Notes under the pieces: generated by a model
What the model was told of the DNA's origin: nothing
Database searches by the model: none
The model's input: only the letters and a program-made list of their open reading frames with translations
Shown here: one piece after another, positions 22,080 to 63,260 of the stretch
How positions within the stretch are numbered: position 1 is the first letter of the stretch
Layout of the letters: each line of letters starts with the position of its first letter
Position numbers and translations under genes: made by a program
Assembly (NCBI GenBank): GCA_964017185.1
Contig: OZ024870.1
Span: 55,306,312 to 55,370,311, forward strand
Length of the DNA: 64,000 nt
Source of the DNA: Rugalucina vietnamica
Lineage: Eukaryota > Mollusca > Bivalvia > Lucinida > Lucinidae
Direction: 5' to 3'

Positions 22080-24036
22080 TTAAGATAGAATATCAGTAAT
22101 ACTGAATGTCTTTCTCTTTTTTGGACAGTTTTGCTCACTCACAGCTTCAGTATTTCTGCTCATAGTATCAGCAACTTGCACATTCAAAAATGTAGACTGA
22201 TGACTTCTGTATATTGGCTTATATACAGGCTCTCGAAATAATGGAGTATTTTGACATCCAAACTGAGGAACTGGGTCTTGAGAGAGTCTCAAGTCTGATG
22301 AAAACATAGGCTGATGTTTTTGACGAAGCACAGAAGAACTTTGTTGAGTTTCAACTCTGGTCTCTGAATCAAACTGAGGGACTGGGTCTCGAGAGAGTCT
22401 CAAGTCTGATGAAAACATAGGCTGATGTTTTTGACGAAGCACAGAAGAACTTTGTTGAGTTTCATATTTGGTCTCCAAATCAAACAGAGGGACTGGGTCT
22501 TGAGAGGGTCTCAAGTCTTGTGTTAACATAGGCTGACATATTTGATGAAGCACTGTAGAACTTTGAGTTTCATTTCTGCTTTCAGAATCAAACATAGGCT
22601 GATGTTTTTGACGAAGCACAGAAGAACTTTGTTGAGTGTCCTTTCTGGCCTCCGAGTCAAACTGAGGGACTGGGTCTTGAGAGAGTCTCAAGTCTTTTGA
22701 CAACACAGGTTGGCGTATTTGATGAGGCACAGTAGAATTTTGTTGATTGTCACTTGTGGTATCTGAATCAAAACCAGTGGTGCTCAATAAGCGTTTAATG
22801 GATGTCTTCACTCTATTTCTATGATGGCTTGGATCTTTCATTGTGTTTGTTTCTTGCCCTTGTTGAACCACTCTAGGCTCACTTTGTGCCGCCTTGTTCT
22901 CTGCATCACAAATTTCAACTTTTCGGAATTTACTCACTAAAAATTCATTCTCTTTCCTACCTCCAGTTACAGTGAACATATACTGACTCTGTACTCTCTC
23001 TAAAAGTTTCTCACATGTTATTCCCTGAGACATAATGTCATTACCACTAATGTTAAAGAACTTTTCCGCATTTTCATTGAACATAGTGAATGTTTTCATT
23101 GTATTGTCTGCACTCACCATTATCTTAGCACATAGCCCAGTTGCACTTGCAATATATATTTTGTTGCACTTGTCACATGCAAATGTTTTGCTTTTTTCAT
23201 TTTCCTTCATTTTCTTTCTACACCCTAAGGCAGGGCAACAGTGATAACAATCAATTATAACTTCTACGGGTTCTGCCAATACTTCTTGAAGTGAATTTCT
23301 TTCCATTAAACAATCCAAGGATCGAATTTGTGTTGCTTTCTTCTTATCAGGTGATAAGTTGATGTTTATATGCGACTCTTGCCGTATATCGTATAGAAAT
23401 TTTAAGTGTTCACCTTTAGGGTTCACTGCATACATACAGTTTGTGCCATTGATAAGATAACAAGCACCATAATTTTTCACCACCACATTTTCAAAAACAA
23501 CAACATCTCCCACGTGCCCACTAAATGTATTTCCAGCTGCAGCATACAAAGAAATTTTGATAGAAGAGTCTTCATCTCTCAATACAACCGTAGTTTTGTC
23601 ATTTGAATCTTCATCCTTATAGATGTCGGTAATTTTGCCAGCAATGTTCAGGTTGACCAAAGTATTCTGTGGCAAGTCTTTAAGGGGTGTTAATTCTACA
23701 ACATCTTCAAAGGGCTTCACATTAAGTCTTTCAACATTTGTGTCATTAGTGAATGTCACTTGCAACAAACTAGGTGTATGACAGAATCTGGCTATACATG
23801 AATTAACTTTCAAAGGGTGTAGTCTATAAGTCTCCCCAACTGTTAGGAGTCCCTTTATTTTTGAAGCATTTGGTCCCCAAGCAACAAAATCAATTTTCCC
23901 AGTTCCATCCTTCAACATTCCTATTACTCTTTCCCCTTTGTTTGTTTTCAAAATGTCACTTATGTCATGAACTGTTGCCTCTATACCCATCATTCTGCCA
24001 ACACATGCTTGGCTAATCTCGCCAATTGGAGAAAAC
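22080..24036 (-). CDS. RPA-like single-stranded DNA-binding protein of the Helitron (5' incomplete)
   Basis: Single-stranded DNA-binding factor probably used during Helitron replication. The N-terminal part reads as consecutive OB folds in the style of RPA70. The first runs through VIGMLKDGTGKIDFVAWGP (about 1-100 from the ATG at 23993) and the second through GKITDIYKDED and VVLRDEDSSIKISLYA (about 108-195). The third holds a zinc ribbon (CYHC...CDKC, about 250-277) like DNA-binding domain C. A C-terminal tail has repeats and ends near a basic PKKRKTF, a plausible nuclear signal. The frame stays open upstream of the ATG (FSPIGEISQACVGR) to a tttgcag acceptor at about 24037, so at least one 5' exon is missing from this call. 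Same strand as, and 5' of, the Rep/helicase gene. Confidence 0.85.
22255..22725 (-). repeat. Coding tandem repeats in the RPA-like gene tail
   Basis: About five partial units encode variants of SSVLRQKHQPMFSSDLRLSQ and QDPVPQFDSET. The DNA blocks ctggtctt/cgagagagtctcaagt and tgatgtttttgacgaagcac recur with little change, so the expansion is recent. The frame is kept. Confidence 0.85.
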
Positions 24037-24190
24037 CTGCAAAGACATGTTGGTTTTGTGTTTTAATTTGTCATTTTTAGTTGTATGAGGATCGGTCAAA
24101 AAGTTCTGTCACTCCATATGTTTCTTGGCATCTGTCATTGCAAACAATTTTAAATAGCGACATCTGAAAGACCACTTCTCTAGCTATTAC
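24037..24190. other. Probable intron 5' of the RPA exon
   Basis: It begins (minus strand) with the catgtctttgcag acceptor. The upstream RPA exon was not found. Confidence 0.4.
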
Positions 24191-43401: not shown

Positions 43402-43568
43402 GAAAAATGAAGCAACAGCGGCATTTCAAAATATTGTGTTATGTTCTTTATTACTCTACAGAAGGGTTCTTGAATTGTGATTAGTTTTGCAAGGCAAGAC
43501 CTTATATTAAGACCGATAGAGAAAAGACTTTATTTATTTGCGGACGAACGAAGTGAGGGAGAAAATAA
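43402..43568 (+). repeat. 167-bp direct repeat, copy 1 (partner 44655-44821)
   Basis: Appears identical to 44655-44821, 1253 bp downstream. It directly adjoins the inverted-repeat copy at 43566-43774. It could be a pair of short long-terminal repeats of a non-coding element or a recent local duplication. No matching target duplication was found. Confidence 0.9.
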
Positions 43569-44654: not shown

Positions 44655-44821
44655 GAAAAATGAAGCAACAGCGGCATTTCAAAATATTGTGTTATGTTCT
44701 TTATTACTCTACAGAAGGGTTCTTGAATTGTGATTAGTTTTGCAAGGCAAGACCTTATATTAAGACCGATAGAGAAAAGACTTTATTTATTTGCGGACGA
44801 ACGAAGTGAGGGAGAAAATAA
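44655..44821 (+). repeat. 167-bp direct repeat, copy 2
   Basis: Partner of 43402-43568; see there. Confidence 0.9.
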
Positions 44822-45213: not shown

Positions 45214-45266
45214 ATGTTCAAACATATAGTTTGTTTATCGTTGGCTGTTTTGCTGGATTCTGTCAG
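45214..45266 (+). CDS. Exon 1: start codon and signal peptide
   Basis: ATG at 45214 opens MFKHIVCLSLAVLLDSV: a short basic start, a hydrophobic core, then a polar end. The exon ends ..GTC AG at a gtaatg donor, leaving phase 2, which joins to the A opening exon 2 to make Arg. Any 5' UTR exon is not visible. Confidence 0.75.
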
Positions 45267-46564
45267 GTAATGCACTAGTCATTTGTAACGACGGCCCAAA
45301 CAGCGGGGTACTTTGACCTTTGATCCACCAAAGTCCCCACAAAACCCCCGCACTGCGAGAACAGCTTTTTGGTAAAACCAATGCTCTTTTCCCCCCAAAT
45401 CTGCTACGTTTCCATTTCATTTCGATTTATCAAGCAAACACCGGGTCTTTCCCTGTACAACCCCCCCCCCCCCAGCAGGCACATGCCGTCAAAATGACGT
45501 CAGATCGACGTCGATGCGACGTCGATATGACATCATTCTGACGGCATGTGCCTGCTGGGCCGGCTCATTCCATGCATCCCTTGCTTGCCCTCTTAGCGGT
45601 TTTGAGAGCGCGGTTACAAATGACTGGTTCATATTACTAACATTTCTGTTGCAAAGTCTGAATGAATCTATAGAATTGAAATGCGATTCATAGTTCCATG
45701 AACAACATCGTGTCGCGCGACGTCACATGATTGGATGTTTTAAACGTCATGGCGTCATCGATGCCGTTCCGCCGTTTGAACACACACACTACATGTATAA
45801 ATTCTCTATTTGCTTGTACATGTGATCGCCTTGATATTTTTTCAACAAGCGATAGAAAGAAATGAATATAAATATAAGCAATAAGTTTATTTTTTCTGAT
45901 GTTCCTGGAGCTATGAACTACAGAGGGTCGCTAACAAAGGTTACAATCATTCATTTTGCACGCGACCCACTGTGTTTCATAGCTCCATGAACATCAGGAA
46001 AATGAGATGAGCCTTCGCACGAGAAAACCAACGGCTCCAAATAGGCCCGACGCAAACCGGCCTGTACAGTCACAGAAGCAGGCCAAAAGCTTGAAATATT
46101 GGATTTAAGAAGAAAAGTGATTGTTCTCTCCTTGTAGCGAAAACAAAGAATCCGGGTCGTTTCGCCCGTGGGTCGTTTCGCCGGGTCGTTTCGCCCTGAG
46201 TCGTTTCGCCCTCGTTTTATGGGTGGGTCGTTTCGCCCTTATTAGGCGGGTCGTTTCGCCCGTGGGTTGTTTCGCCCGTGAGTTGTTTCGCCCGTGAGTT
46301 TTTTCGCCTATTATTATTATCATTATTATTATTATCATTATAGTTTTTGTTGTTGATATTGCTATTGATGATGATGCTGATAGTTAGGGTAGGTAGGTAG
46401 GTAGGTAGGTAGGTTGGTAGGTATGTAGGTTTGGTTAAAATGAGTATCTTGACGTATTTTGTTAATATAATATTTATTCAAACATTTTAGCGCTTCCGCT
46501 TCTGTGGCTTTTAATGTTGTAGAAAGATAAAGACAAGAAGGAAGAAAGGAAGGAAGGATGGATG

Positions 46565-46663
<99 letters not shown>

Positions 46664-46972
46664 GTGGTATTTCTGGTATTTCGATAGTCAGCAAAACCAA
46701 TTTTTAAAAATAATTAACAGAAGTGTGATTTTTGTCCAATTCAATTGACTAATGCGATAATCCATTAATATGTTTATGCCTTTAATCACACATACGGTGA
46801 CAATATAATCGTGTTTGTCAATTAAAGGCTATGTGTGAATGCTACAAATGTTTTTCGCGGTGACCGATGGCCGACATTCTTGAAATGTTCAATGGAACTG
46901 ATGATAGCGTGCAATCATAAATCAACATTTTTTTTCTGTACAGCATACTCATTGTGTTACGGTTTTAAGCAC

Positions 46973-47022
<50 letters not shown>

Positions 47023-50000
47023 TAATAAATAATAAAAATGACTTTCGTTTTTCGCTGACGTCAAGCGTTAAAGTGGTCAAAACACACAAACATGTATACG
47101 ATTACAGCGCCATTAACGCAAGTCCGTGCCCATTTATTGTGTTTGAAAAGTTTCGAACTCGTTTCATTTTACACGCAAAAATGAAAGTTTTCTTTATACG
47201 CATTCAAGTGACATAATTACCATGTAGTTTTGGTGCAATTGAAAGTCAACTAACAGCATTTGCTTGGCTTTTGGTGTTTCTTTCCAGAAATCATGTTGGA
47301 CCTGGTGAATATTTTTCGTCCTCATAATTTGTTTCTGTATGATTAACGATTGAAATCATAATATATGAAGTAAATCACTGGCGTTGACGTTCCTTTTTTG
47401 TATGAAATTTAAGCAGGCTGATTGTATTTTCTGTTCGAAATTATTTTTGCCAAAATATTCTGTTTTCTAAAGGAAATAATCATTATCGCAACCAATTTAT
47501 AGTGAGGCGTTTTCAAAGTCCTTTAGTATATAGTACACAAAAGACAGTTATGAATGGTCAGCCCTAGACATATCTTTAAGTTAAAAATAACAAATAATAC
47601 ACCAGATTACACGTTTGGGCATGGTAGAAAAATTAGGGCGAAACGACTCACCAAACAGGGGCAAAACGACTCACGGGCGAAACGACCCATGGCGAAACGA
47701 CCCAGGGCGAAACGACTCACGGGTGAAACGACTCAGGGGCGAAACGACTCACGGGCGAAACGACCCAGGGCGAAACGACTCACGGGCGAAACGACTCACG
47801 GGCGAAACAACTCACGGGCGAAACGACCCGGGACCAAAACAAAGGCGCTTGCACAGCTGATCTGCGACTTTGTTTTCGCACGTGCAGATTGTCGGTTTTG
47901 TTGTTTGATGGCTCAAATGAAATTCATTTCTTAAATACAACATTTTTTGGCATATCCAAAAAAATTTTGGAGTAAAATTTGCACACCAGCTGAGTATATT
48001 TACACGTGTGTATTTTGGCGCATGCGAATTGGACTTAAGTGTTCTTCACAGTGGGATAGAAAAGTGATTAGATTACCCGTTTTATGATTATGCTAAACCC
48101 TTTTGTATTTATTCATTTAATTATTTTTAAATTCTGATTAACATCGTTTAGAGGCAACATTCGTAACTTTGAAATTTACAGGTTTAAAGCTTAAGACAGT
48201 AGAAGTGGATATAAAACATTCAGCCTCTGTCCAAATGGCCATTTCACTCTTTCATGGTTTCTTTTTAATATAGAGGTGATGTATGTTCCTACCAGAAAGT
48301 CCGACAGATCAGAACCAGCACAGACTGTGGATTGTTCGGCTGGGCTAGCTGCACCAAGTACAGGTAAGTTGTGCAGCATTAATTGTTTTATTATTGTGCG
48401 CGAAAAGCACTTTGGGCTTCGAAAAAATAAACTCAGCTATGCTTTCTCGTGCATATAAATTCTAGTTTACCCGTATGTTTTTTTTTTATAAACATATTTT
48501 TTTTTAATTTTCATATTTAATATTTTATTTTTTTTCGTGTGTGTTGGTGAGTTCTTCATGGCTGAAAAAGCCAATTCTTGCTCTAAACTGTCGGTTGTAA
48601 GTACAAGTCAATGTCATGGAAATTGGTCTTGGCATTGCTTTCTCTGTGCTGTCTTTCAACTTTATAAATTCTCTTTTCTTCATGGAGAGCTGCCCCTTTG
48701 ATGAGACCTTGCCACTTTGATCATGTTGATCGTTCCTGTGAAGTCTATTGGTATGCCGAAATTGTATAGAGCACAGGCGCTCGACGACTGGATCGAGTTT
48801 TTTTTTTTATTTATATTTTTTTTTTTTTTTTTTTTTTATTTTTTATTTTTTTTTTTTTTTTTTTGCATTTGCACCCGTTTGCAGACCCTAACGATATGTT
48901 TGCACGTATGCAATGATTTTACCTTTAAACCTTTTTTTATCAATCCTCAATCAACCCTCTGGCCACATTGAAAGCGCTTTCCCTCTTGTAATTCTCCGAT
49001 GAAAACTTTCTTTGGAAGTCGCTCCTTAGCATTCTTATAACATGGCAAGGTCGTTCTGTATAAGCTTTAAGACTGTATGCATGCTTTGCATCTCTGCTTT
49101 CTTCAAGAACCTTGACTTGCCACGTGATTTTGGAATCTTGTCTAGCCATTTGATTTTAACAGCTTTCTCAAACAAAATGAAAATTGTTGTCTCTTTGCAT
49201 GACGTTGGTATACTATCCAGGTCTCACATTCATATAAAAGAGTTGGCAGTAAAACAACTTCGTAGTTTGGTGTCAAGCTTGATTCCATTTCGCTCCCGCA
49301 CATTTGCACGGAGTCTCTCGACTGCCACACTGGCTTTTGCAATTCTGGCAGTAACCCCATCATCAATGTACGCTGCTCTGGAGAGAGTGCTTCCAAGGTT
49401 GGTGAATATATCAATAACTTTCAGTGTTTGTCCATTCACAGTGATGGTTGGTTCATTGTTTTCCAGGTGCTTGTTGGTGTATAACCTCTGTCGTTTTTGT
49501 GCTGATTTTGAGATCATAGTTATCACATGACTGTGAAACTTTATCCATGTCTCTTTGCATTTTTGCCTCTGAGCTGGCATTCTTATCCATATCATCTGCA
49601 TAGAGGAGCTCATCTAGAACATCAGTCTGCACCTTAGATTTGGCAAGCAACTTTTTAAGGTTCAATATTTGCCATCAAAACGGTACCTCGTTGGAAAACC
49701 ATTAGGGTATCACTGTCCTGAAAGCATCCATGACCTCGTCAGGAATTGCAGATCTGCACCTGGAGCTTTACCAGATGACAGTTGTTGAACTGCTTTTCTT
49801 GTTTCCATGGCGATTGAAAATGTATATTGAACATTGCACTCTGTCGACGCACTGTTATTGTCGTTCGTCTATCACACACTGGTAAATGTAAAAGTACTGG
49901 AGCTGGTTGTACCATCCGTTTTACTAGAAAACGTGGAGTCTAAGGTTCACGGGCAAAATTTTATTAGGCATTTTCTTGCTTTATTTTCTATGTTTTCAAA

Positions 50001-52373
50001 GCTAGATCCCTCTTTATCGTCTCTCAATCAGTCAGAATAGAATAATATGGCTGTAAAAGCTTTAACATATACTGAAATTTGGTTATAGCACTATTCTCAT
50101 CTTAAAGAATATGTACGTATATTAATAAAAGTAAAGCAATCGGAGCATCTGCAGACCAACAAAATTCCCCAAAAGAAAGAGCTATTTGTAAGAATTAAAA
50201 TAGCAAGGCACAGTCTTTGCCATATCCAGCTAAACAAACTCATTAAAAACTTAGATGGACCCATTTTAAAAAATAGGACATAAATGAATTTGTACGTTCT
50301 CGTACCTTTCTTTTTTGGTTGATCGGATGCACGGGTTGATGAGATGATAAGCGGGATCTAGGTCTGCAACATGAAAAGTAATGCAAGAAAATGCCTCATA
50401 ACAATTATGTTCATGAACCTTAGACCCTATATTATTTAGCAAAACGGGTGGTACATGGGTGGACTTTTTTTCTTATTGTTGCTCGACATATAGAGTCTGC
50501 GTACTCTAAGAATCAGCTCTAACGTATAACCACCATCTATGTTTGTAGCAAAAATAGGACAAAAATCAACTTTCCCCTCAATTTTGGCACAAAAACACAT
50601 GTCACCGGTCATGCTGGTAGAACTGTATCGGCTTTGGCTTCTAACCCATGAAATAAATCGCATATTGCGTGATTAAATCATAAACGGCAAGGCTTCCGCC
50701 CTTTTCTGCGCTAGGTGACATGACAAACAAAATACAGACAAATTTATATGGAAATATTGAAAAGAGGTACATGTATAAGTTTTATTCACCTTTTCCGCCA
50801 TTTCAATCTTACTCCAGTGCGTAATTAGACATTTTTCACTTTTGAACGGAAATGCTGCTGGCGCTTGCGGTTATGACATTCCGTGTGATGGGGGACGACT
50901 CGTGAGGGCATATTTGAGACGAAGACGAGGGACGATATGAAGAATTACTTAGTCAAAACTACCAATAGCCCGACGAAGACGAATTAAATAAGGAAGTCAA
51001 AAAATGAAATAGTCTAGGACGTGTAGCTGTGTAGCTCAGTAGGTAGCGTCCTTGGAATTGAAAGCGAAAGCTCCTGGGTTCAAGTCCCGGACGGATCACC
51101 ATTTGTCTCTCTAGCGTTGGAAATAAAACATATATTATCAGCTGATTATATTTTTTGGCAAATGCAAGAATTATGAAATGCCCTACTACATTAAATTCTT
51201 AAATCGTAAAGGAATTGAAGTTTGAGACGGCAGCCCACATGTATGTTTTCTCTTGTATTGGGAGCTCGATCGTATTTTTGGTATAAGAGCTGATCTTTCC
51301 TCACGTCAATATTTCTTTCTGGGAGACATGAAAATATGAATATACTGAAGGTTTGTACAGGCATAATGTGGCTAGGATAAGTTAGCCACCCTGAACGACT
51401 TAAAAATGTTTTCTGCGGACGTAGGCACTAACTCAAATAGTTCACTGTATAGTGTACATGTAAAGATATATGTATATTTATTAGGTGTAAGACCTACACT
51501 TCCACGTGCTGTCTCGTGAGAGAACATTATTTATTTTGGCATGTTTATACATGTATTTCAAAACAGATACTCGAAATCGTGATGTTATTTATTTGGTTGA
51601 TGTTTCGTTTTGAGTCCATTAGACAATCATCTGCAAGTCATAAGTGCGATATCCTAGCTACATTTTGCATAGCCATACAAATAAGTTGAGGTTTTGTAGA
51701 CCTTCCACAGTATTTCAGCAATTACGATTTTTGGGATGTTTTTTTCCAAGTCAAAGGCTTTCTTTCTGATCCTCATTTATTATCTTGAATTACGCGTGAT
51801 GTTTATCTGGTTGAATTTAAATACATATAATTATACTTCAAACTAAAACAATATTATTTTCAAGAAAATACAGTTCGTTTTTTTCATAACGTGTCGCGTA
51901 CCTTGCTTAACCCTAAAACAGGATGACAATATTCTTTACGCGAGCACACACACACACACACACGTACGCACGCGCGCACGCACGCAAGTTCCGTAGATGA
52001 CTTCATGTCACAGTGGTTCAGTCAGTCGCTTCGTAAAATCACATGTCGAGAATAAATACGTACATGTAGTTGATATAAGACTGGTACAAAATTATTTTTA
52101 GGGAGCGCGGTGGCTTAGTGGTAGGGCGTCTGACTCCGAATCGAGAGGTCCTGGGTTCGATCCCCACAGGCACCACCGTGTTGTTAGCAAGACACATTAT
52201 CTCCTTACTAACTGGTTAAACCCAGGAAGCGTTGGCTCCGTCCCGACATGACCGAAAAAAAGCCTTAATAAAAATGATTTTGATAAGAGCGCTCAAGAGG
52301 TTGACTCCTATTTTTATTGGAATTATTATTTTTATCTTTTTTTCGCATCTTTGACAATATTCTTGCGTAGAAA

Positions 52374-52426
<53 letters not shown>

Positions 52427-55400
52427 CTTAAAACCTATATGCACTGGTAAAATGCAAAAATAAAGAAATCCAGACAGCAATTAAACATACTTAAGGAATT
52501 AAAATACGCAACACACTAAATTTCAACTTTTACGTATGTATTTGACGTTTTGATAAAATCCTTTTATGAAATGACCTACTGACTGCTTTTTGCATGTGAT
52601 GAAATGAGAAAACGTCATTTTATTGACAAAATTAACGACAAAACGTCAAAAACTATGAAAAACGCAAATTGTGACGTACACGTCGGGGCGAAGGGTAAGG
52701 TGACAAATTCTTTGCATGTGGGTTACGTGACGTCGACTAGATAATGTGCAATAAAGACTTGGATCATTGTATACTTAGGTGCCGTCCCATGTTGCGTTAA
52801 ATCTTGTTAACGCAATGCTGAAGTTTACAATAAAGAAAAATGAGTAATTAACGTCATTTAAATTATTCGATTTTGGCTATTTGTACCTAAACGGTATATA
52901 TCGAACCAACATATGACAATACATGTTTTTTAATCAACAGTGACGTCATAGGTACCGTAGAAATGGATCATCGGAACGTTTGATTTGACTGTCTTTAGAC
53001 AGAGTATCTCGTTATGTAAAGAAGCGAAACGGATTATATGCTTTGAGTAAACACTCGATTTACGCACTGTAATCAAACGTTTGGTAATTGATCATTTTTT
53101 AAATCAGAAAATTTGAAAAGCATGATGAGAGTCTTTAAAATGCAGGATGTTGAATTTCGACGTTATAATGGACGTTTTATGGACGTCTGAAGTATAAAGG
53201 TCATAATGTTTACGTAAATAAACATTTTATTGAATATAACGCATGCCGAAGGAATTTTTCTGGCTTTTGACTCATTTTTTCGATTGACGTTGGTGACGTT
53301 AAACGTCCCATAACATACCCAAATGTTACCAACTGATCAATGGTTACATCTGCAATCACTTTTAGGGGTTTTGGAAACAAAATATTGGTTTTGGTTTCAA
53401 ATTTGACATTTACTGATCATGGTTACAGGGTTTGCTACTGTAGGTCAGTGTGGTTACGCGTACGCCATTAAGCATACATAACCGACAGTGTGGCTCAACC
53501 GGTTGCAATTTGACGTTTAGATATTGTTTTCATATAAGATGCTCAGTTACACCACAGACTTGCATTACAAAGCATGTTTTTAGTAACCCAAAGTATCTGT
53601 TGCGTTTCTTTATTCCTTAAGTATATAAACCGTAAACAATGTTATCATATGCAATGGTAACAATGATTATTGTTGTCTTCCCGTTTAACTGTCTGATTCT
53701 AATGGAACAATGAACTAGAAGTGGCCTTTGACACGACATGTTTACAAAATCGCATCATCAACCGTCATGTTTGCCATTAAAGATACATTACGCGTAGTCG
53801 GCCTTACAAATGCTTGGCGCGAATAAAACAGCTTCCAGTGCAGAAAATTATTTTTAGACACTCGTGTGTATAACTAGGGATCGCTAGTTCAATTCTGAGC
53901 TGCCCATGGCTTTATGGTGACACTATAAAACGAAATCCCGTCTGCATATGATGATAACTGTTGGTGGGAAAACAACTATCAACTATACTCATCAAAAGAA
54001 GTTTTGCACCATTTAGATTTTTTCATATTTTTAAGTGACATTTTAACTAACACATTTTAAAGTTAGCTTTTTGAATTTGCACAGTCTGAAAAAGTTTGAT
54101 AATGTGTGTGATAAGACCAAAAGTTGTTGCGGAAACGATTTGAGGAAAAATTGAAAATTCCAATTTTCTGTATATGCTGAAAATTGGAAAATCGAAAAAA
54201 TTCCACAAAAAATGCCACAGCATCAAGAACACATTTTTGTTTCCAAATTTACACACAAGAGCTCCAAAGCTAATGATTAAGCCTAAAAACAATTTAAAAA
54301 ATCTCAAAATTTTAGTAAAAATTCATTTTTTGACAAAATTGCAATTTTTGAGAAAAAAATGATAAATATTGGTAAAAATGAGTAAAATCGAAATTCATTT
54401 CAATTTTTGATTGTTATGAGATGTTTTGACACCAAAAGTTGCCGCCTGTTTTCTTTCTGTTAAAGGCAATCTCATGTCAAAGATGTTGCATGAGGACTTT
54501 TTTGACATGCAGCTTTTTAAAAATTTTGAATTTGGATGAGTTGAAAACCAGTACTTTCAGTTAAACAATAATGGGTGCTGCATGCTGTGTTTGAAAGAAA
54601 AACAACCCATTTTATTGGAGAGATGAGTTACTAAGCTTTATCTGAGAATTTAAACAAAATCTCAAAAATCGTTATTTTTGGTCAAAAATAGTGTTTTTGT
54701 CAAAAAAATTCAATTTTTAGTTTTTTTGCTTTAAATGATTGCTTTCAGTATCCCGAATGAGGATGTGAAACGAATTCGGGGTTGGAAGCCCAGAAATAAA
54801 GATATGGGCTTTTTGCTGCATCCCAAATTTTGGTGTTTTAAAAAACATGCATTTTTGCACATTTTTATTTAATCTTTTTTAGAAGAAATATTGTTTTGTC
54901 ATTCAGGAAGTCCAGCCCTTTAAGATGGTATTCAGTTTTAAAAGTTTATTTGAAAAATGTCTATACTAGACATTATTTTAAAATGAGAAAAATATTAACT
55001 GGTGCAAAACTTCTTTTGATGAGTATATTTGTTATCGCCATGTGACTTTTAACATACTGGTGCATGTATATACGTACATTGTTTCTGTTAAGCTACATTT
55101 CACGTGTTTTTCGTGAACACACAGAATTTTTTTTATATGTAAACATGGCAAGATTTACGATTTGAAACATTTAGTTGATCTTTAATTTTATGTGCAGTTT
55201 ATTTTTATTCTACGCCTTACAACGTTTTGACACATTTCAAGTAATATCGAGCATGGTCTGTTATCCTCATCAGGATATGTCCGTGACATGTTTACCCCCA
55301 TTGAACAACACTTTTATAAAGCAAAACTTCAGTATGCAGGGGTTTACCTAGTTTTAGCTCACATGAGCCCTTCGGCTCAAAAGGTGAGCTTATAAGATGG

Positions 55401-58400
55401 CCATGCCCCGTCGTCCGTCCGTCATCGTATGTCAACAATTTCCATGATCTTCTTCTCTGAAACAGCTTGGCCAATCAAAGTTAAAACTGTTTGCGGAGCA
55501 TTCTTAGGAAGGGGGAACGAAATTTGCATAAATGGACCAGGTCACATGACCGAGATGGCCGCCTTGGCTATAAATAGCAAAAACCGTTAAAATGTTTCTT
55601 CTCCAGAAGCAGAAGGCCTATGATTTTGTAACTTGGCATGAAGCATCAAACAATATTAAAAGCACTACAAAGTTTGTATTAATCATTTCGCTGGGATGAC
55701 CTTGACCTATTTTACGGAAAGATCAACTTACATGTAGGTCGCCCATGCATTTAAATGAGGAAATTAGTTAAATGTAATTAAATGGGTGGAAACTTGCTAT
55801 GATAATACAAATGGGCAGATTTATTTTTATGAAAACATTAAGACCCAGGTGGTTGTCTGCTCCTGCCTGGGGGATATATACATGTATATGACTATAATAT
55901 TTAAACATCTTCTCTGCAACCACATGGCCGATCAAAGCCAAACTTCGTGGAAGGGGAACGAAAGTTTGTATTAATGGTCAAGGTAACTTACTTGACAATA
56001 ATGGCCGCCATGGCTATAAATTGAAAAACCTTTAAAAGTGTTCTTCTTCAGAACCAGTAGGCCTATGATTTTGAAACTTGGCATGAAGCATCTACAAAGT
56101 CTATATATGACCCAGGGATGACATTAACCTATTATAGGACAAGGTCAACTTAGGTTGCCTATGCTTCTGAAAACATAGATCGTGAGTATTCGTTCTATCA
56201 TGTGTCCACAATCTATGTTTTGAACAAATAAGAAAATATCAAAACTGTTGAACTGAAAATTTTCATTTTTTTTTTTCAACTTAAAAACACACTGTATTTT
56301 GCTTGTTAAGGTTTTGTAATGATATCGTCATGATACAGGGTACCGTTTTAGTGCACATGTATTACACATGCTGATGACAGATCTACAACATTTGATCATT
56401 CTTAACCTTACTCATTAGGGCCCATCTTTGCGTCCGGAATCGGGCAAGCATATAAGCACATAAGCTTCTTACTCAATCTGAATTTAAATAAATAATAAAT
56501 TGAATCGGTTTGTTGATTTGAGCGTTAATCCAACAGCAAAGGTCATATGGAAACGAGACCTCAGTTTATAGTCTCATCCGACAGACTCAAGAAGACCCGG
56601 ATCAAACCTGCGATCTCTGGTTTATAAGGCACGTGAAATATCCACTGCACCATGGAGGCTTGCTTAATAGGTTCAGTATAAACTTTAATCATGATATACA
56701 ATTTTGACTATTACCAGAATTTCAATAGTTTGGCTATTGAAATTTTGGGCCCTATGACAAAATTTCAATAGCCAAACACAACACAATTAAATTTCCCCTG
56801 TTACATGTATATTAGAATCATGAATGGCGGTTCGTTTGTTTACATATAAAAGGTCGGTAAATGGACACGTGAAATGTCTGCGTGGTATACTGTACATGAA
56901 TATGTGTATTCGGGTATTGTCTATCAGTGTCAGCACCATCGTATATGCTTGCGATACAATCAAAGTCCTTAGACCAAATCCAAAGATTGATGCAACACCA
57001 CACAACATGTGATAAAATGGATTAAAACAACCTTCAGCGCAGCAATATCGCTTTGGCAACTACCAACACCAAGACAATGAACTCTTCGCCGTAGGTTGCT
57101 GCCCAATTGATCAGTCTTACAATCACGGGTGACACAAACCAAGTTCTGCTTGTGGGTGTGCAAGTTCGTTTTCTCAGGGTTCTCCCCTCCCCTTTTTCCC
57201 CCTGTTACTGATTTACCCGTCTCATATGAACTAAAATAATCTTGAACGGGCCGAAAATTGTATAAAAAAGGCATCATTATGATAAAAAATAAGCACAATC
57301 AGACCCTTATCTGTAATCAAGTAACAATAGAATGACCAAGAATCTATACAATTAAATTTCCCATCCTAACATAGACACCAGGCGGGAGAGACATGGCGGT
57401 GCAACACATCACAAGCAATTTAACAACACGCATAAAAAAAACAAAATTACTAGCTCTTTCCAAACAAGACCAGCGTCCATTCTGTTTAAAGGGACAATAC
57501 ACGAGGCAATAATCTTAAGAAAACACATGTGTCAATGTGAAGACTGTAAACAAAATTATTTGTGAAACATATGAATAATTTGTGCACTTTGACAGAATAT
57601 GTAGTGTCCAAAATTGCTTCTACGTGTATTTGAAAATGGCGAACATCAAAAGTAAACTGCGGCGAAGTGACGCGCGACCCGCTTTACGGGGCGACTGAAA
57701 CACTATGTGTCCTCCACGTCCTCCACTTTAGAAACTCATGAAAATAATATAATTGTGTTAGTTTGATTTTAATTTATTTATTTGAATTCAACCAGGTGAA
57801 ACAGCACGCATACTATCACACAGAATAAATGAGGATCAGAACGAAAGCTTATGTCTTGCCAAATTGATTTTCTACATCGTAACCATCGGTCTCGATATGG
57901 CAGAATACTGTTGAAAGTCTACAATAAACAAAAACAGTTGTGTGGCTAGGCATATTGTAGCTACATGTATCGCTCTTCCTACTGTCGAATGAACTCAAAA
58001 CGAGACATCGACAAAATAAACATCGTTCGCTCACGAGATAGCACGTGAAACTGTAGTTTTACATCTAATAATACACATATATCTGAACATGTACACTATA
58101 CTTTTTTGATTTGGTGTCTTGTGTATTTGTTAAAATTCAGTTTTACGTCCCTTTCAAGATTATTTCAGCTCATATGAAAAACATCAAACAGTAGGTGGGG
58201 CGAAAACGGGAGTACTCCGAGAAAAACCGCCTGACACACCCGCAAGCAGAACTTGGCCTGTCTCACATGTGGTCATTGTGGGTCTCGAACTCACACCAGA
58301 CACAACGGTGAGATGATTAAGTGATTATGAAACAGCGCTCTTAACTGCTCGGCCACGGGGGACGCTTGTGGATTTTTTTAGTCATTAGAGGCGGTCAGCT

Positions 58401-61400
58401 TATCCTAGCCACATTATCTGTACCAGCCAGTCAGGAAATAAATGTTGACGTTAGGATCGGTCACTGATCCGTTCTTCTGTCGAAAATGACGATCGAGTTC
58501 TCGGCTTCAATAGGTGAAAAATCAACAAGACCTATAAAAAACCTATACATGCGGTCTGCCTTCTCACAAGACAGTTTAATCCAGAAACTTACGATTTTAT
58601 TATTAAATGCAGCAGTGAATTTTGTGATTCTTGCATTTGCCAATAGATAAAATATTATTTTCTTTTTTCCTTTTTTTCATTTCTTTTTAATTTTCTAAAC
58701 TTTATTGTCACAGGTGCGAAAAAAGGAAGAAACAATGAAAAGGAAAAATAATTTTTGTCCTACCCGGACTAGAACCCAGGACCTTTCGATTCTATGTCTT
58801 ACCCTCTACCTACTGAACTATTCAGCTAGGCGTCCTGGACAGTTTCGTTTTTGCGTGTCTCATTTAATACACCTCAGGTGGGCTGTTGGTAGTTTTGACT
58901 AAGTAATTCTTCATATCGCCCCTCGCCTTCGTCTCAAATATGCCCTCACGAGTCGTCGCCCATCACACACAAAGTCGTAACCGCAAGCGCCAGCAAAATT
59001 TACGTTCAAAAGTGAAAAATGTCTATTTAGACTTCACCAGTTCGTTGCAACCAGCTCCAGTAATTTTACATTTACCAGTTAAGAAATACTTTCAATTATT
59101 TCTTGAAATAGGTTATTGTACTCTAGTATAAGAAGACATTAATTGTTTGCTTCACGTATCTGCATGTTATTTTGTAGGAGCCAGGTAGTGACAGTATCAG
59201 AGTGCTGTCATCTCTTCAACGGGACTGACTGTGACGAAGGTTGGTTTTATCACGACGTAATTACTATGCTTACATTTTAATTTGAAACCTGACTGTATAT
59301 ACATTTGAGCCCTGTCATAAGAAAAAAATCAATGTGGTTTCCGATCAGATCCGAAACAAACCAAGCTGTACAAGCACAGAAGATGACTAGAGGCTAGAAA
59401 TTTGGATTTAGAAAGTGGAAGAATTGTATTATCCGTGTAGCAAGAACAAAGGCGCTGATCACCTTCGTAGTTACCGCGAAGCTGATCTGCCTCTTTGTGT
59501 TTATGCATATACAAAATGTCGTTTTGTATAAAATAATGCAATAATTTATTTCTCAGCATATCCGTAAGATTATCGAATTACATTATAATAAATAATGCTT
59601 AAGATTTTAATATCTTTTTCTTTTTAAAAGCATTCGAACTGCGTTCATATCTTAACTCAGAAAGATACATTAACCACCATTATGTATAGATGTATAGTGA
59701 AAATAGTCAAGTTTTAACGAGCTAGAATGCCTAAATCGCATCAGGAAAACATGTCCGTGAAATGTATACCCCCTCATACCCCACTTTTATCATAGTAAAA
59801 ATGGGGTTTAAGCCCCTATCTCACTGGAATGCGACAACTGGAGACTAGTTCGCGAATAGTTCGCGACTATTTCGCGACAAAGATAAACGATATAAACACA
59901 ACTTTCACGTTGCAGTCTCATTGAATAGACATTTTTGCGACAAATTCGCGAATTTCGGTCTAATTTTGAAAATATATCGCGCGACTGTATAGTCGCGCTA
60001 CTGTCGCACGACAGTCGCGCGACATTCGTGAGAGTGTCTCACGACTTACCCGCGAATGTAACTTATTTTCATTTAAATTCGTACGACAGTCGCGCGACAT
60101 TCGTGCGAGTGTCGCACGACTGTCGTACGAATGTCGCTTAGTTTTATTTTCTCGCCAGATAGTCGCGAGGTTTTCGCAAGACTGTCGCGCGACCGTCGTG
60201 CGACACTCGCGCGACATTCGTTCGAGTGTCGCGAAAATTTCGCATTGTAAATTCGCCAAAATTTCGCGGCGACAAGTTCGCGACACTCGCACGAACGTCG
60301 CGCGACCGTCGCACGACTGTCGCGCGACAGTCTTGCGAAATATTTTGGAGAAAAAATTCGCATAGAAATTTTCAACATGTTGAAAAACTTCGCGACCAGT
60401 TCGCGACTAGTTCGCGACACAAAAAATTCTCACGACACTCGCGCGACACTCGCACGAATGTCGTGCGAAAGTCCCGCGACAAAATTCGCAAAACAGTCGC
60501 GAGAAATTCGCATGCCAGTGAGATACTAGCTTAAATTACACGGGTATACCTATCTTTTCTTATTTTTAATCCAAAACATAGATTGTGGGTACTCGTTAGA
60601 ACCGCCTCGGTGAGGCGGTTCTAACGTGTACCCACAATCAATGTTTTGAGCAAAAATATCAAAAACATAGAAATTTTTCCTATGAAATTTTCAATATATA
60701 ATTGAAAAAAAAATCTCTGTATATTGCATGGGCATGTTTTTATAATCGTTTTAGTTATTTGTGGAATACCAAGCCTTTCCAACGGCCAGGCAGAGTTAAA
60801 TGGAACTCAAGCTAATTATTCCTGTAACGAAACTTATCAGCTGACAAGTGGCGATTCTACAAGGTATTGTACGGAGAATGGCACTTGGGACGGAGAGCAG
60901 CCGTACTGTGCATGTATGTTAGTTTGCTATTCAACTTTGCTATATAGATTAGATATTCATGTACGTTACCCAATAAATGCATATTTTATTCATCAGTTAT
61001 TTTTGCATTATCGATTAAGGAGTTATTAAATCGAAGCTTCGAATACATGTACAATGTACGTCTAGCACGTTCGCGGTAGAGAAAGGTGCTTTATGCATAA
61101 AAGTGAAAAAAAGTTGTAAGCAATAATCAGAAACAGACAGTATCTTAATTTTATTAAACAGAAACTTATCCACAACGAAAATAACTTAAAACAACGAATC
61201 TCACATGATTTAAACCTTACTGTGCCATCAATAGAACAGGTCTTCCGCCATAGAACAGTCAGTAATAAAATACTGGGTGCATTTAGTGGTTTGGCGGACC
61301 AGCTGTCAATCATAGCTTGTGATGTGGTTGGAGTTTTGGATCGCAAACAGCCAATGAACGCTCAAATTAAAGAAATAAAACAATAAAACAAAGGCGAGTG

Positions 61401-62191
61401 CGATTTTATAAACAAAAAGAAAATGAGAATAAAAAGTAATGCGATGCAAACTGTTTGCTGTATTGCTTTATATATTCAGACATGGAATCATGTAGCAGCA
61501 GTCCATGTGAGAATGGGGGTGTATGTTCCAATGAACCAGATGGGTATCATTGTGAGTGCACGGTGGCGTGGAGTGGAGCACGGTGTGAAATAAGTAAGCA
61601 AACTTGTCGGCTCTTTACATAATTACCACTGCCTTTCACTTCTTAGGCTTATGTTTAATCTTTAAATCGTTTTAGACGACAAACGTTTATTCCCTGGCCT
61701 CTGTGACGGCAACACAATATCGTATTACGTGAAAACGCCCATGCATCATTGAGAGATTTATCTTACTTTGAAATTGAAAATGTTTAGTCAACAAGAAATC
61801 TTTTTTTTTCTTTATATTTGCTCAAAACGTTGTGGGTACACATTAGAACCGCCTGGGTAAGGAGGATCTAACGAGTATCCACAATCTATGTCTTGGATCA
61901 AAAATAAGAAAAAACTGTATATCCCTTCAAACCTCAATTTGGGATTCAAGGGGATATTATTTTCTTGACGTTTGAAGTAACAAGTTGTGTGTTTTATTTG
62001 TTTGCATTTAGATATAGTCGACTGTGGCGATCCTGGGGTTATTGAACACGGGTCGTTGTTGGTTCCCAGTACAAAATACAATGAGAAAGCCGTATATACT
62101 TGTAATGAGCATTACAATATGACAGCTGCTGACTCAGAGATAACATGTCAGATGGATTTCACTTGGAGTGGAACTAAGCCAACATGTACAC
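45214..62191 (+). CDS. Secreted EMI-CCP-EGF-CCP protein (spliced, 3' incomplete)
   Basis: Six exons join in frame: 45214-45266, 48274-48363, 59178-59239, 60755-60913, 61480-61593 and 62012-62191, with junction phases 2, 2, 1, 1 and 1. The partial product of about 219 residues has a signal peptide (1-17), an EMI-like domain (about 22-67, Cys pattern C-C-C-CC-C), a CCP/sushi module (69-121, four Cys and the conserved Trp), an EGF-like module (about 123-159, six Cys) and a second CCP (160-219). Such secreted proteins act in adhesion, matrix or pattern recognition; the specific role is not known. Exon borders coincide with module borders. The gene continues past 62191, and no later exon was found before the window ends. 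The second intron (48364-59177) is 10.8 kb and mostly transposons. The domain calls are by eye from motifs. Confidence 0.82.
45471..45559. mobile_element. 89-bp palindromic MITE with GACGTC core
   Basis: Perfect 21-bp ends: cccagcaggcacatgccgtc (plus a) and its inverse tgacggcatgtgcctgctgg (plus g). The 47-bp centre is a run of ATGACGTCA- and GACGTCGA-type palindromes. A C-run of 14 precedes it. Very short TIR elements with ACGTC cores occur in several marine invertebrates. The family name is not certain. Confidence 0.85.
45896..45997. repeat. Hairpin with CTGATGTTC / GAACATCAG ends
   Basis: Arms 45896-45934 and 45961-45997 (ctggagctatgaa and its inverse, gagggtcgc / gcgaccc) with a 26-bp loop. 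The atagttccatgaac word at 45690 is a related fragment. Confidence 0.8.
46020..46148 (+). repeat. Dispersed aacaaaggcgc repeat, left part
   Basis: Collinear with 59330-59450 and 62220-62345 (caaaccggcctgtacagtca, cagaagc, gaaat..ttggattta, gtagcgaaaacaa). It is interrupted at 46148 by the foldback element and resumes at 47836. Confidence 0.8.
46149..47835. mobile_element. Foldback element with tandem-array inverted ends and 9-bp target duplication
   Basis: AAAACAAAG lies directly outside both ends (46140-46148 and 47836-47844). The left end is an array of about nine gggtcgtttcgcccgt-type units (46152-46310). The right end is about twelve units of the inverse, gggcgaaacgactcac (47635-47830). 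The outermost bases are inverted, tcccgggtcgtttcgcc on the right against tccgggtcgtttcgccc on the left. The interior is non-coding with TTA, GGTA, GATA and AAT microsatellites. The design and 9-bp duplication recall Drosophila FB/Galileo foldback elements. No transposase. Confidence 0.9.
46557..46664. repeat. GATA microsatellite
   Basis: About 25 uninterrupted GATA (tagatagatag) units after ggaaggatgg. Other simple repeats in the same element are TAGG at 46388-46412 and AAT at 46974-47022. Confidence 0.95.
47836..47930 (+). repeat. Dispersed aacaaaggcgc repeat, right part
   Basis: aaaacaaaggcgc, acagctgatctgcg, tttgttttcgc, gcagattgt and gatggctca continue the copy interrupted at 46148. Confidence 0.8.
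48274..48363 (+). CDS. Exon 2: first half of the EMI-like domain
   Basis: Acceptor ctttttaatatag and donor gtaagtt. It reads GDVCSYQKVRQIRTSTDCGL, then FGWASCTKYR, which matches the opening CSY...C...GW..C.. pattern of EMI domains. Phase 2 on both sides (A at the start, AG at the end), so all three first junctions agree. Confidence 0.8.
48945..49820 (-). pseudogene. RTE-like LINE reverse-transcriptase relic
   Basis: On the minus strand, from 49800 downwards: AVQQLSSGKAPGAD (early RT block), then a jump to KVQTDVLDELLYADDMD with the YADD catalytic motif, TITVNGQTLKVIDIFTNLGS, DDGVTARIAKASVA, and a C-terminal part with YECETWIVYQRHAKR and PCHVIRM. The middle of RT is deleted (around 49670-49720), and there are several frameshifts, so it is inactive. 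The assignment rests on remembered consensus for this common RTE-like group. The 3' end lies near 48945. Confidence 0.85.
50509..50552. repeat. Dispersed palindrome, one decayed arm
   Basis: gctctaacgtataaccacca then tctatgttt is a diverged right arm of the 60572-60648 family. Confidence 0.5.
50812..51835 (+). mobile_element. Dispersed element with internal tRNA-like module (inverted partner 57770-59035)
   Basis: Long collinear similarity to the reverse complement of 57770-59035. Shared words include agacatttttcacttttgaa, gcgcttgcggtta, actcgtgagggcatatttga, ttacttagtcaaaactacca, ttggcaaatgcaagaat, aatgtggctaggataag, tagtgtacatgt and gttttgagt. A tRNA-like segment (51028-51102) sits inside, not at the end. 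No protein was recognised, so it is a composite SINE-like or non-autonomous element. Confidence 0.8.
51028..51102 (+). repeat. tRNA-derived segment with A and B boxes
   Basis: tagctcagtaggtag (A box) and gggttcaagtcccgg (B box and T stem) are present at normal spacing, but the 5' and 3' ends do not form an acceptor stem. This is a tRNA-derived part of a repeat, not a working tRNA gene. The matching segment at 58750-58830 (minus) supports this. Confidence 0.75.
52103..52270 (+). mobile_element. tRNA-derived SINE
   Basis: gcggtggcttagtggtaggg (A box) and gggttcgatccccac (B box) head the element. The tail passes through aggaagcgttggctccgtcc to an A-rich ttaataaaaat end. The acceptor stem does not pair, so it is not a functional tRNA. 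No target duplication identified. Confidence 0.8.
52375..52423. repeat. AAT microsatellite
   Basis: About 16 uninterrupted ATA/AAT triplets shortly after the SINE at 52103-52270. The Leu-rich minus-strand open frame is an artefact of it. Confidence 0.95.
53996..55025. mobile_element. TA-flanked TIR element, 1.03 kb (Tc1/mariner-like)
   Basis: The ends TACTCATCAAAAGAAGTTTT continue to gcacca and match the inverted right end over 26 bp without difference. TA lies outside both. The interior is strongly AT-rich with many aatttt / aaaatt words and no intact transposase. Frames at 54047-54307 and 54174-54362 are low complexity. Confidence 0.88.
55355..56165 (-). repeat. Dispersed hairpin-ended element, inverted copy
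   Basis: It starts at the agctcacatgagccc-ttcg-ggctc hairpin and runs with two to three units of tggccgccatggctataaat, aggcctatgattttg, aaacttggcatgaagcat and gatgaccttgacct. Opposite orientation to 27060-28368. Confidence 0.75.
56169..56223. repeat. Dispersed palindrome, short copy
   Basis: gaaaacatagatcgtgagta and the inverse tgtccacaatctatgttttg survive; the CCGCC centre is lost. Confidence 0.65.
56500..56657 (-). mobile_element. tRNA-derived SINE with conserved core
   Basis: On the minus strand it reads tggtgcagtggatatttcac (A box region), gcaggtttgatccgg (B box), then ggatgagactataaactgag and gtctcgt, a stretch I associate with conserved SINE cores in invertebrates. The tail is not defined. 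Confidence 0.7.
56724..56777. repeat. Small hairpin
   Basis: aatttcaatag, ttggctattgaaattt and a third atttcaatagccaaac pair with each other around gggccctatgac. Confidence 0.6.
57110..57290 (+). mobile_element. 5'-truncated SINE copy
   Basis: Shares ccaagttctgcttg, ggtgtg, gttttctc and the tail atgaactaaaataatcttga with the SINE at 58135-58370 (minus). It lacks the tRNA-like head. Confidence 0.65.
57770..59035 (-). mobile_element. Dispersed element with internal tRNA-like module, inverted copy with nested SINE
   Basis: Partner of 50812-51835. A SINE (58135-58370) interrupts it where the partner is continuous (around 51400-51435). The tRNA-like segment is at about 58750-58830. The end lies only about 140 bp before exon 3 of the EMI-CCP-EGF gene. 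Confidence 0.8.
58135..58370 (-). mobile_element. tRNA-derived SINE (Leu/Ser-type head)
   Basis: Minus strand: cccgtggccgagcagttaag (A box of the long-variable-arm type), gtgtgagttcgagacccac (B box), then agttctgcttgcgggtgtgt, cggtttttctcggagtactc and a tail atgagctgaaataatcttga with acgtaaaac. The middle block is a conserved style in invertebrate SINEs. It appears full length. Confidence 0.85.
59178..59239 (+). CDS. Exon 3: second half of the EMI-like domain
   Basis: 62 bp from acceptor atgttattttgtag to donor gttggt. It reads SQVVTVSECCHLFNGTDCDE, with the adjacent-cysteine ECC...C ending of EMI domains. It begins with G to complete Arg and ends with G to open Val of exon 4. Confidence 0.75.
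59330..59540 (+). repeat. Dispersed aacaaaggcgc repeat
   Basis: Carries ccgatcagatccgaaacaaa, atttggatttagaaagt, gtagcaagaacaaaggcgct and gcgaagctgatctgc in the family order. Confidence 0.8.
59807..60535. mobile_element. TIR element with TCGCGCGAC motif array
   Basis: The left end TTTAAGCCCCTATCTCACTGG and the inverted right end TTTAAGCTAGTATCTCACTGG match at 18 of 21 positions. Between them are dozens of TCGCGAC, GTCGCGCGAC, TCGCACGA and TTCGCGA words, mostly self-complementary, so a single strand could fold in many ways. It inserted into an older repeat whose uninterrupted form is near 27480-27550. The Arg-rich open frames on both strands are artefacts. Locally CpG-rich in an AT-rich region. 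Confidence 0.85.
60572..60648. repeat. Dispersed palindrome, best-preserved copy
   Basis: Arms of 37 bp (60572-60608 and 60612-60648) pair with two mismatches. The centre is CCGCCTC-ggt-GAGGCGG, and the outer word is caaaacatagattgtgggta. Other copies are at 44997-45076, 61821-61896, 56169-56223, 27559-27596 and 50509-50552. Confidence 0.92.
60755..60913 (+). CDS. Exon 4: CCP (sushi) module 1
   Basis: 159 bp from acceptor aatcgttttag to donor gtatgt, phase 1 at both ends. It contains ICGIPSLSNGQAEL, NYSCNETYQL and YCTENGTWDGEQPYC. Four cysteines and the Trp have CCP spacing, and the length suits a single module. Confidence 0.93.
60914..61479. other. Intron 4, no other feature
   Basis: No repeat I can name. 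The minus-strand frame at 61062-61346 has no known domain. Confidence 0.5.
61480..61593 (+). CDS. Exon 5: EGF-like module
   Basis: 114 bp from acceptor tttatatattcag to donor gtaagc, phase 1 at both ends. It reads MESCSSSPCENGGVC, then SNEPDGYHCEC and SGARCEI, with six cysteines in EGF order and the typical CxNGGxC. No clear calcium-binding D-x-D/N-E signature at the start. Confidence 0.95.
   Translation, partial: TWNHVAAVHVRMGVYVPMNQMGIIVSARWRGVEHGVK
61821..61896. repeat. Dispersed palindrome, copy in intron 5
   Basis: ctcaaaacgttgtgggtaca, gttagaaccgcct-like centre, and the inverse gagtatccacaatctatgtc. More diverged than 60572-60648. Confidence 0.8.
62012..62191 (+). CDS. Exon 6: CCP (sushi) module 2
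   Basis: 180 bp from acceptor tttgcatttag to donor gtaagtg, phase 1 at both ends. It reads IVDCGDPGVIEHGSLL, YTCNEHYNMT, and TCQMDFTWSGTKPTC. Four cysteines and the Trp are in CCP order. The open donor shows that the gene goes on past here. Confidence 0.95.
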
Positions 62192-62989: not shown

Positions 62990-63260
62990 TCATCAAGAAC
63001 AAACAAATAAAGCATGATAAACATCCTGATGAATCAAAAACAAAGACTCACAGATTGAGTAAGCTGCCCGACGATGGAGATCCCTGGGCGCCGAATAACC
63101 TACTAACTCCGGAGCAAAAGAAAAACACCAGTTGGACCCCGGTGGGCCAAGCAACAGACAAGAAGCTCCGGCCCCAACCAACTAAAATGAATAGCTTTAA
63201 GTCGGGGCCATCATAGAGTCTGACGCCCGACCCACCGGCGTGCAATTAAGAGCAATTCTC
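62990..63260. repeat. GC-richer segment sharing cccgacgatggagat with 5665-5755
   Basis: About 60 bp (aatcaaaaacaaagactca to cccgacgatggagatc) parallels 5690-5757. The rest is GC-rich compared with its surroundings and uncharacterised; its open frames are not recognised. Confidence 0.45.

Follow-up and report, generated by a model that had tools for sequence, protein, structure and literature searches.

This analysis concerns a 64,000-nucleotide window from the lucinid bivalve Rugalucina vietnamica (C2:55306312-55370311, where C2 is contig OZ024870.1, one of the 47 contigs that make up a 1.09-Gb assembly), and the question raised by the locus is whether six short exons, joined by eye across a 10.8-kb intron, form one gene and what kind of protein that gene would encode. 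Judging from the genomic sequence, the six joined exons belong to a real gene but represent only its 5' half, and a ten-exon model for a secreted, disulfide-rich mosaic glycoprotein is put forward with good confidence. Positions refer to the window unless marked as joined, in which case the window numbering is continued into the next 200 kb, with 264 kb examined in total. The six exons and the long intron are as follows.

Exon 1, 45214..45266, plus strand: ATG and hydrophobic signal peptide MFKHIVCLSLAVLLDSV; donor CAG/gtaatg, phase 2.
Exon 2, 48274..48363, plus strand: first half of a six-cysteine EMI-like head, RGDVCSYQKVRQIRTSTDCGLFGWASCTKY; 90 nt in six of six gene copies.
Intron 2, 48364..59177, plus strand: 10,814 bp, rich in repeats.
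Exon 3, 59178..59239, plus strand: second half of the EMI-like head, RSQVVTVSECCHLFNGTDCDE; 62 nt in six of six copies.
Exon 4, 60755..60913, plus strand: CCP/sushi 1, accounting for one of the two Sushi stretches that Pfam finds in the six-exon peptide.
Exon 5, 61480..61593, plus strand: EGF 1, Pfam EGF at residues 126-155; 114 nt in six of six copies.
Exon 6, 62012..62191, plus strand: CCP/sushi 2, Pfam Sushi at residues 164-218; donor CAC/gtaagt.

The exons, borders and phases (2,2,1,1,1) of the sequence-only reading were borne out, with AG/GT sites at every border, a single open frame of 219 residues through the join, and an exon order repeated in five paralogues. Exon 1 was defined as an ATG open frame with a hydrophobic stretch, a donor of 7/9 or better and phase 2, and the exon listed is the sole frame of this kind in a 10,127-bp stretch reaching from upstream through exon 2. 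A domain search on the joined exons, proposed with the same reading, recovered CCP, EGF and CCP as two Pfam Sushi stretches and one EGF, all above cut-off, but no EMI match at E<=10; the joined protein had no NCBIfam match at E<=1. One gene carrying a signal exon and a cysteine-rich head across the 10.8-kb intron, followed by CCP, EGF and CCP, is retained from that reading, while the EMI identity of the head is unproven.

Support for the exon chain comes from a cluster of paralogues. A tblastn search of the next 200 kb with the exon peptides located five further copies (P1-P5; the window copy is P0), all downstream on the minus strand and each carrying exons 2-3-4-5-6 in order, and the six-copy family appears to have arisen by tandem duplication. 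Exons 2 (90 nt), 3 (62 nt), 5, 6, 9 and 10 are constant in length in all six copies, and exons 7 and 8 in five, being 3 nt longer in P5; sequence homologous to exon 4 occurs in all six copies, measuring 159 or 171 nt in the five copies modelled. By the criteria used for P0, counterparts of exon 1 were found in P2, P4 and P5, and none in P1 and P3. In P1 a frame of phase 2 is present but its donor is weaker, and its segment aligns with those of P3 and P5; four of the five other copies thus have a counterpart in phase, that of P1 being weak (the P3 counterpart is stopped). The size of the intron separating exon 2 from exon 3, together with a head lacking a Pfam match above cut-off, might suggest that exons 1-3 come from another gene and were joined by accident to the CCP exons; however, the exon 2-3-4-5-6 order recurs in five more copies, with introns of only 434-1,451 bp between exons 3 and 4 in P1, P3, P4 and P5. 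A chance join was rejected on this conserved order and is almost certainly wrong. As a separate observation, the terminal exon of P2 is doubled in tandem (joined 106058-106264 and 106417-106622, C2:55412369-55412933, minus strand), its two versions being 90% alike in protein; they may be last exons used in a mutually exclusive way, or one of them may be a dead duplicate.

The six exons had also been taken for a whole short secreted protein, a view that did not hold. Exon 6 has a donor, and a gene ending there was rejected on the presence of four further exons with splice sites, encoding EGF, HYR, CCP and C-terminal modules, followed by a stop codon.

Exon 7, joined 74944-75057 (C2:55381255-55381368), plus strand: EGF 2, with splice sites; Pfam EGF at residues 224-253 of 473.
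Exon 8, joined 75404-75649 (C2:55381715-55381960), plus strand: HYR, with splice sites; Pfam HYR at residues 257-338.
Exon 9, joined 76325-76522 (C2:55382636-55382833), plus strand: CCP3, with splice sites; third Pfam Sushi stretch.
Exon 10, joined 91730-91935 (C2:55398041-55398246), plus strand: C-terminal module and stop, with splice sites, ending the complete frame.

The full gene comprises ten exons over 46,722 bp (C2:55351525-55398246), and its complete frame of 1,422 nt, terminated by a stop codon, encodes 473 amino acids with 39 cysteines and 11 N-glycosylation sequons, hydropathy revealing no membrane-span-like stretch after the leader. Pfam identifies three Sushi stretches (61.1 bits, cut-off 20.7), two EGF stretches (54.5 bits, cut-off 21.5) and one HYR domain (38.1 bits, cut-off 21.7); further EGF-type models also match, among which hEGF passes its cut-off. 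The third Sushi stretch was assigned to exon 9, as no more than two occur in the six-exon peptide. The C-terminal 68 residues matched no Pfam family at E<=10, their best PDB match was an unconvincing one at E 0.12, and a PDB search with HYR plus CCP led nowhere. The modules of exons 4 to 9 are symmetric and of phase 1, and EGF 2 contains CQNSATC, fitting the EGF O-fucose consensus as given in PMC11990869. The predicted order is signal peptide, six-cysteine EMI-like head (two exons), CCP, EGF, CCP, EGF, HYR, CCP and the 68-residue C-terminal module.

The product looks like a secreted glycoprotein on account of its symmetric phase-1 modules, its leader, its sequons and its density of disulfides, and the family most likely consists of matrix or body-fluid glycoproteins. 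With its leader, 11 sequons and no membrane span, the protein would be secreted into matrix or body fluid. The head would link chains to each other or to the matrix, as EMI domains do, a plausible step because EMI heads are described as having a role in multimerisation (PMC8487547), and the CCP-EGF-CCP-EGF-HYR-CCP rod would bind ligands, as described for SRPX2 (PMC3252299) or polydom (PMC10281526). Taken alone, the multimerisation and ligand-binding steps are tentative, with the balance tilted against them. The composite reading, in which a clustered family combines a shortened EMI-type multimerising head, this rod and a 68-residue, four-cysteine cap without a Pfam family, would be rather doubtful in all its parts together.

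Several points weigh against the main explanation, the ten-exon gene for a secreted mosaic glycoprotein. The ten-exon model is built from genomic sequence alone, the leader and membrane topology were judged by hydropathy, and the multimerisation and binding roles are drawn by analogy, for a head that failed the EMI profile test. In that test, hhalign comparison of the six heads with the EMI regions of TGFBI and periostin (a two-sequence template) gave a probability of 0.33%, an E value of 0.18 and a score of 10.0, a score reached by 50 of 100 shuffles that preserved cysteines and by 42 of 100 shuffles of full columns. Among the copies, exon 5 of P5 carries a stop, the P3 counterpart of exon 1 is broken by a stop, and in P2 the exon 4 acceptor at the homologous position, judged by eye, does not keep the frame, with only an internal acceptor found; three of the six copies thus bear a lesion and the cluster is partly decaying, though the lesions in P2, P3 and P5 may be assembly errors.

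These lesions in sister copies also bear on the window copy, which might be a pseudogene swollen by repeats, as its span of 46.7 kb exceeds those of P1 (7.5 kb), P2 (7.2 kb), P3 (6.8 kb, exons 2-10) and P4 (4.9 kb), though P5 reaches 22.3 kb. Against this, its ten exons are all open, its splice sites are all AG/GT and its frame is complete, making a pseudogene highly improbable. All ten exons are open in P0, P1 and P4, three of the six copies, giving proteins of 473, 485 and 482 amino acids respectively.

The failed profile comparison leaves the head itself to be placed. It spans 51 residues as a single copy directly after the leader (exons 2-3), with six cysteines in five copies and seven in P1, including an adjacent CC pair, and its exon 3 motif SECCHL(W/F)xGxxCD is found in five of six copies, P5 having SQCC. 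EMI domains are described as having six or seven cysteines (PMC8487547) and as single and N-terminal (PMC8487547, PMC11949838), and according to a review no EMI crystal structure exists (PMC11990869). The PDB chain sequences of periostin (5YJG) and TGFBI (5NV6) include the EMI region, and the CC pair is observed in both EMI sequences. The first three cysteines and the CC pair of the head are in register with these two, as is the glutamine after the first cysteine, the last cysteine being unaligned.

An alternative is that the head is a separate, lineage-specific six-cysteine domain whose cysteine spacing converged on that of EMI. Beside the hhalign result and its shuffles, this is favoured by the lack of PG after the CC pair (no CCPG(Y) motif is present) and by a profile of the six heads that matched nothing in PDB at E<=10, though TGFBI and periostin chains are there. 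The shared register and glutamine argue against convergence, as does the single, N-terminal position. The Pfam EMI model PF07546 gave no match at E<=10 in the six copies, which is uninformative because it misses the true short EMI domains of TGFBI and periostin too; the heads gave only sub-cut-off Pfam matches, to DUF4956 (head alone, E 0.16) and Colipase. Convergence is given close to an even chance, falling slightly short of it. The head is accordingly named EMI-like and no more, because its cysteine order fits the short type but its profile comparison does not rise above shuffles; EMI membership is not established. The join of EMI to CCP, considered uncommon in the sequence-only reading, was not recognised in any report by searches of an open-access library, judged by the listings and by passages of some papers, which does not show its absence from protein databases.

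The head and the 3' modules differ in their rates of change. Nonsynonymous divergence (dN) between P0 and the other copies is 0.35-0.52 in exons 2 and 3, compared with 0.013-0.040 in exon 9 and 0.061-0.073 in exon 10. The ratio of nonsynonymous to synonymous divergence (dN/dS) of exons 2 and 3 could be computed for 10 of 15 pairs, with values of 0.12-0.64, dS being saturated in the other five. With dN/dS below 1 and a dN well above that of exons 9 and 10, the head looks constrained, yet evolves several-fold faster than the 3' modules; it has changed the most and they have hardly changed, suggesting that the copies share one rod and differ in the binding of the head. Such a pattern, in a tandem cluster with CCP modules, which are common in complement-like recognition, would also suit an immune-type family in which one scaffold carries a variable N-terminal head recognising different foreign or self ligands. 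The head dN/dS, however, is below 1 in each computable pair and the cluster holds only six copies, so an immune-type family is considered quite unlikely.

Synonymous divergence is 0.08-0.43 in exons 9 and 10, versus 0.22-2.8 or saturated in exons 4 to 6, and the neighbours of these low-dS exons in P0, intron 8-9 and the 3' flank, do not align with other copies. The low values could reflect exon-limited gene conversion or synonymous-site constraint.

A search of the whole genome with the protein of exons 9 and 10 gave 15 matches, 13 of them in the cluster and two at C2:77756178-77760922, 22 Mb away. This seventh, more distant copy (C2:77756178-77763526, minus strand) contains CCP2, EGF2, HYR, CCP3 and C-terminal exons with identities of 42-67%, and no CCP1 or EGF1 was among the matches listed. 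Genome-wide, all eight matches of the P0 head (E up to 2.6) fell within the cluster; a head like that of P5 gave 28 matches, of which the best 11 (E up to 0.27) were in the cluster and the remaining 17, from E 0.37 upwards, elsewhere. None of the matches of either head query lies near the seventh copy, where diverged exons could be missed because scoring is limited to the best candidates. An older CCP-EGF-HYR-CCP-cap core may have gained the head, CCP1 and EGF1, or the seventh copy may have lost them, the head diversifying afterwards.

The long intron 2 of the window copy had been described as transposon-filled, a description that is fair in kind, the intron being repeat-rich, but unproven in extent, as 3,524 of its 10,814 bases occur again within the 264 kb, a count that includes inverted copies in the intron itself. 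Its long inverted repeats pair 50822-51090 with 58763-59029 and continue in pieces as far as 51865/57736; a nested element at about 53977-55034 has short inverted ends, and two tRNA-like stretches were noted by eye. Intron 2 of P0 probably grew by insertion, because it measures only 342, 523, 941, 355 and 1,824 bp in P1 to P5, respectively. Two other introns of P0 are larger still, intron 6-7 (12,752 bp) and intron 9-10 (15,207 bp), the latter left out of the intron comparison for its length. Identity over aligned columns between P0 and the other five copies was 44-53% for introns 5-6 and 7-8 and 44-56% for intron 8-9, and on a reading made without a shuffled control these three introns appear unalignable with their counterparts, while the exons align.

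Further repeats surround the 5' exons. Intron 1 holds two arrays of a GGGCGAAACGACTCAC-type 16-bp repeat, at 46152-46308 and 47629-47838, in opposite orientation and about 1.4 kb apart, and intron 3 holds, before exon 4, a GC-rich tract (59843-60508) with 11-bp periodic TCGCGCGACAG-like repeats making inverted repeats. Upstream of the gene, direct repeats of 167 bp at 43402-43568 and 44655-44821, 100% identical, with starts 1,253 bp apart and ending 392 bp before exon 1, resemble the termini of a small and recent insertion, with no obvious target-site duplication by eye.

Elsewhere in the window, a 1,741-residue frame at 14322-19544 (minus strand) has Helitron_like_N and PIF1 helicase matches, with an OTU match just under cut-off, and beside it lies a 660-residue frame at 22083-24062 (minus strand) with RPA1-type OB-fold matches. 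Together they apparently represent an intact Helitron-type transposon with a replication-protein-A partner. An Rfam SECIS_1 match at 63155-63222 (minus strand; 39 bits, threshold 35) lies inside a repeat that has three full and one partial further copies in the 264 kb, none reaching the Rfam threshold; it was rejected as a selenoprotein signal and is probably due to chance.

These results illustrate that exons read by eye across a 10.8-kb intron laden with repeats can be joined correctly, and that comparing copies within a single assembly can lend support to an exon chain when RNA is lacking. To the mosaic proteins found in the matrix and body fluid of animals they contribute familiar modules in a new order and a C-terminal module without a name; the six copies provide a natural series with unequal rates of evolution in head and rod.

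The gene was also compared with known systems. Six pattern matches were obtained in viral contigs, none confirmed as a relative, and automated annotation may well already hold this gene. MEGF10-like proteins have an EMI-EGF architecture. Like them, including a sea-urchin EMI/Egf protein called MEGF10-like in PMC5521101, the present protein has an N-terminal cysteine-rich head plus EGF; unlike them, it carries CCP and HYR modules and has no membrane-span-like stretch after the leader. The short-type EMI proteins TGFBI and periostin share with it a single N-terminal cysteine-rich head with the C...C...C...CC order. These two proteins carry FAS1 domains, whereas Pfam found no FAS1 here, the CCPG(Y) motif is lacking, and profile comparison gave no recognition.

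The remaining comparisons concern the rod. In SRPX2, HYR is followed in order by CCP, and in the present protein too HYR is directly followed by CCP. The present protein also resembles SRPX and SRPX2 in its predicted secretion and in having three CCP and one HYR, in line with the three sushi domains and one hyaline (HYR) domain described for SRPX2 (PMC3252299). SRPX2 is also described as carrying DUF4174 (PMC11788884), in contrast to the C-terminal 68 residues here, in which Pfam found no DUF4174 at E<=10, and this gene has in addition the EMI-like head and two EGFs, while its C-terminal module is of another kind. Polydom/SVEP1 is described as combining CCP, EGF and HYR in one extracellular protein (PMC10281526), a combination shared by the present protein, which, unlike polydom/SVEP1 (over 300 kD), has 473 residues ending in a stop codon and shows no vWA, pentraxin or long CCP array in its complete Pfam table. 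The protein is a member of neither SRPX/SRPX2 nor polydom, because each fails on a tested defining feature; these are its nearest named proteins, and the gene is a new arrangement of known modules.

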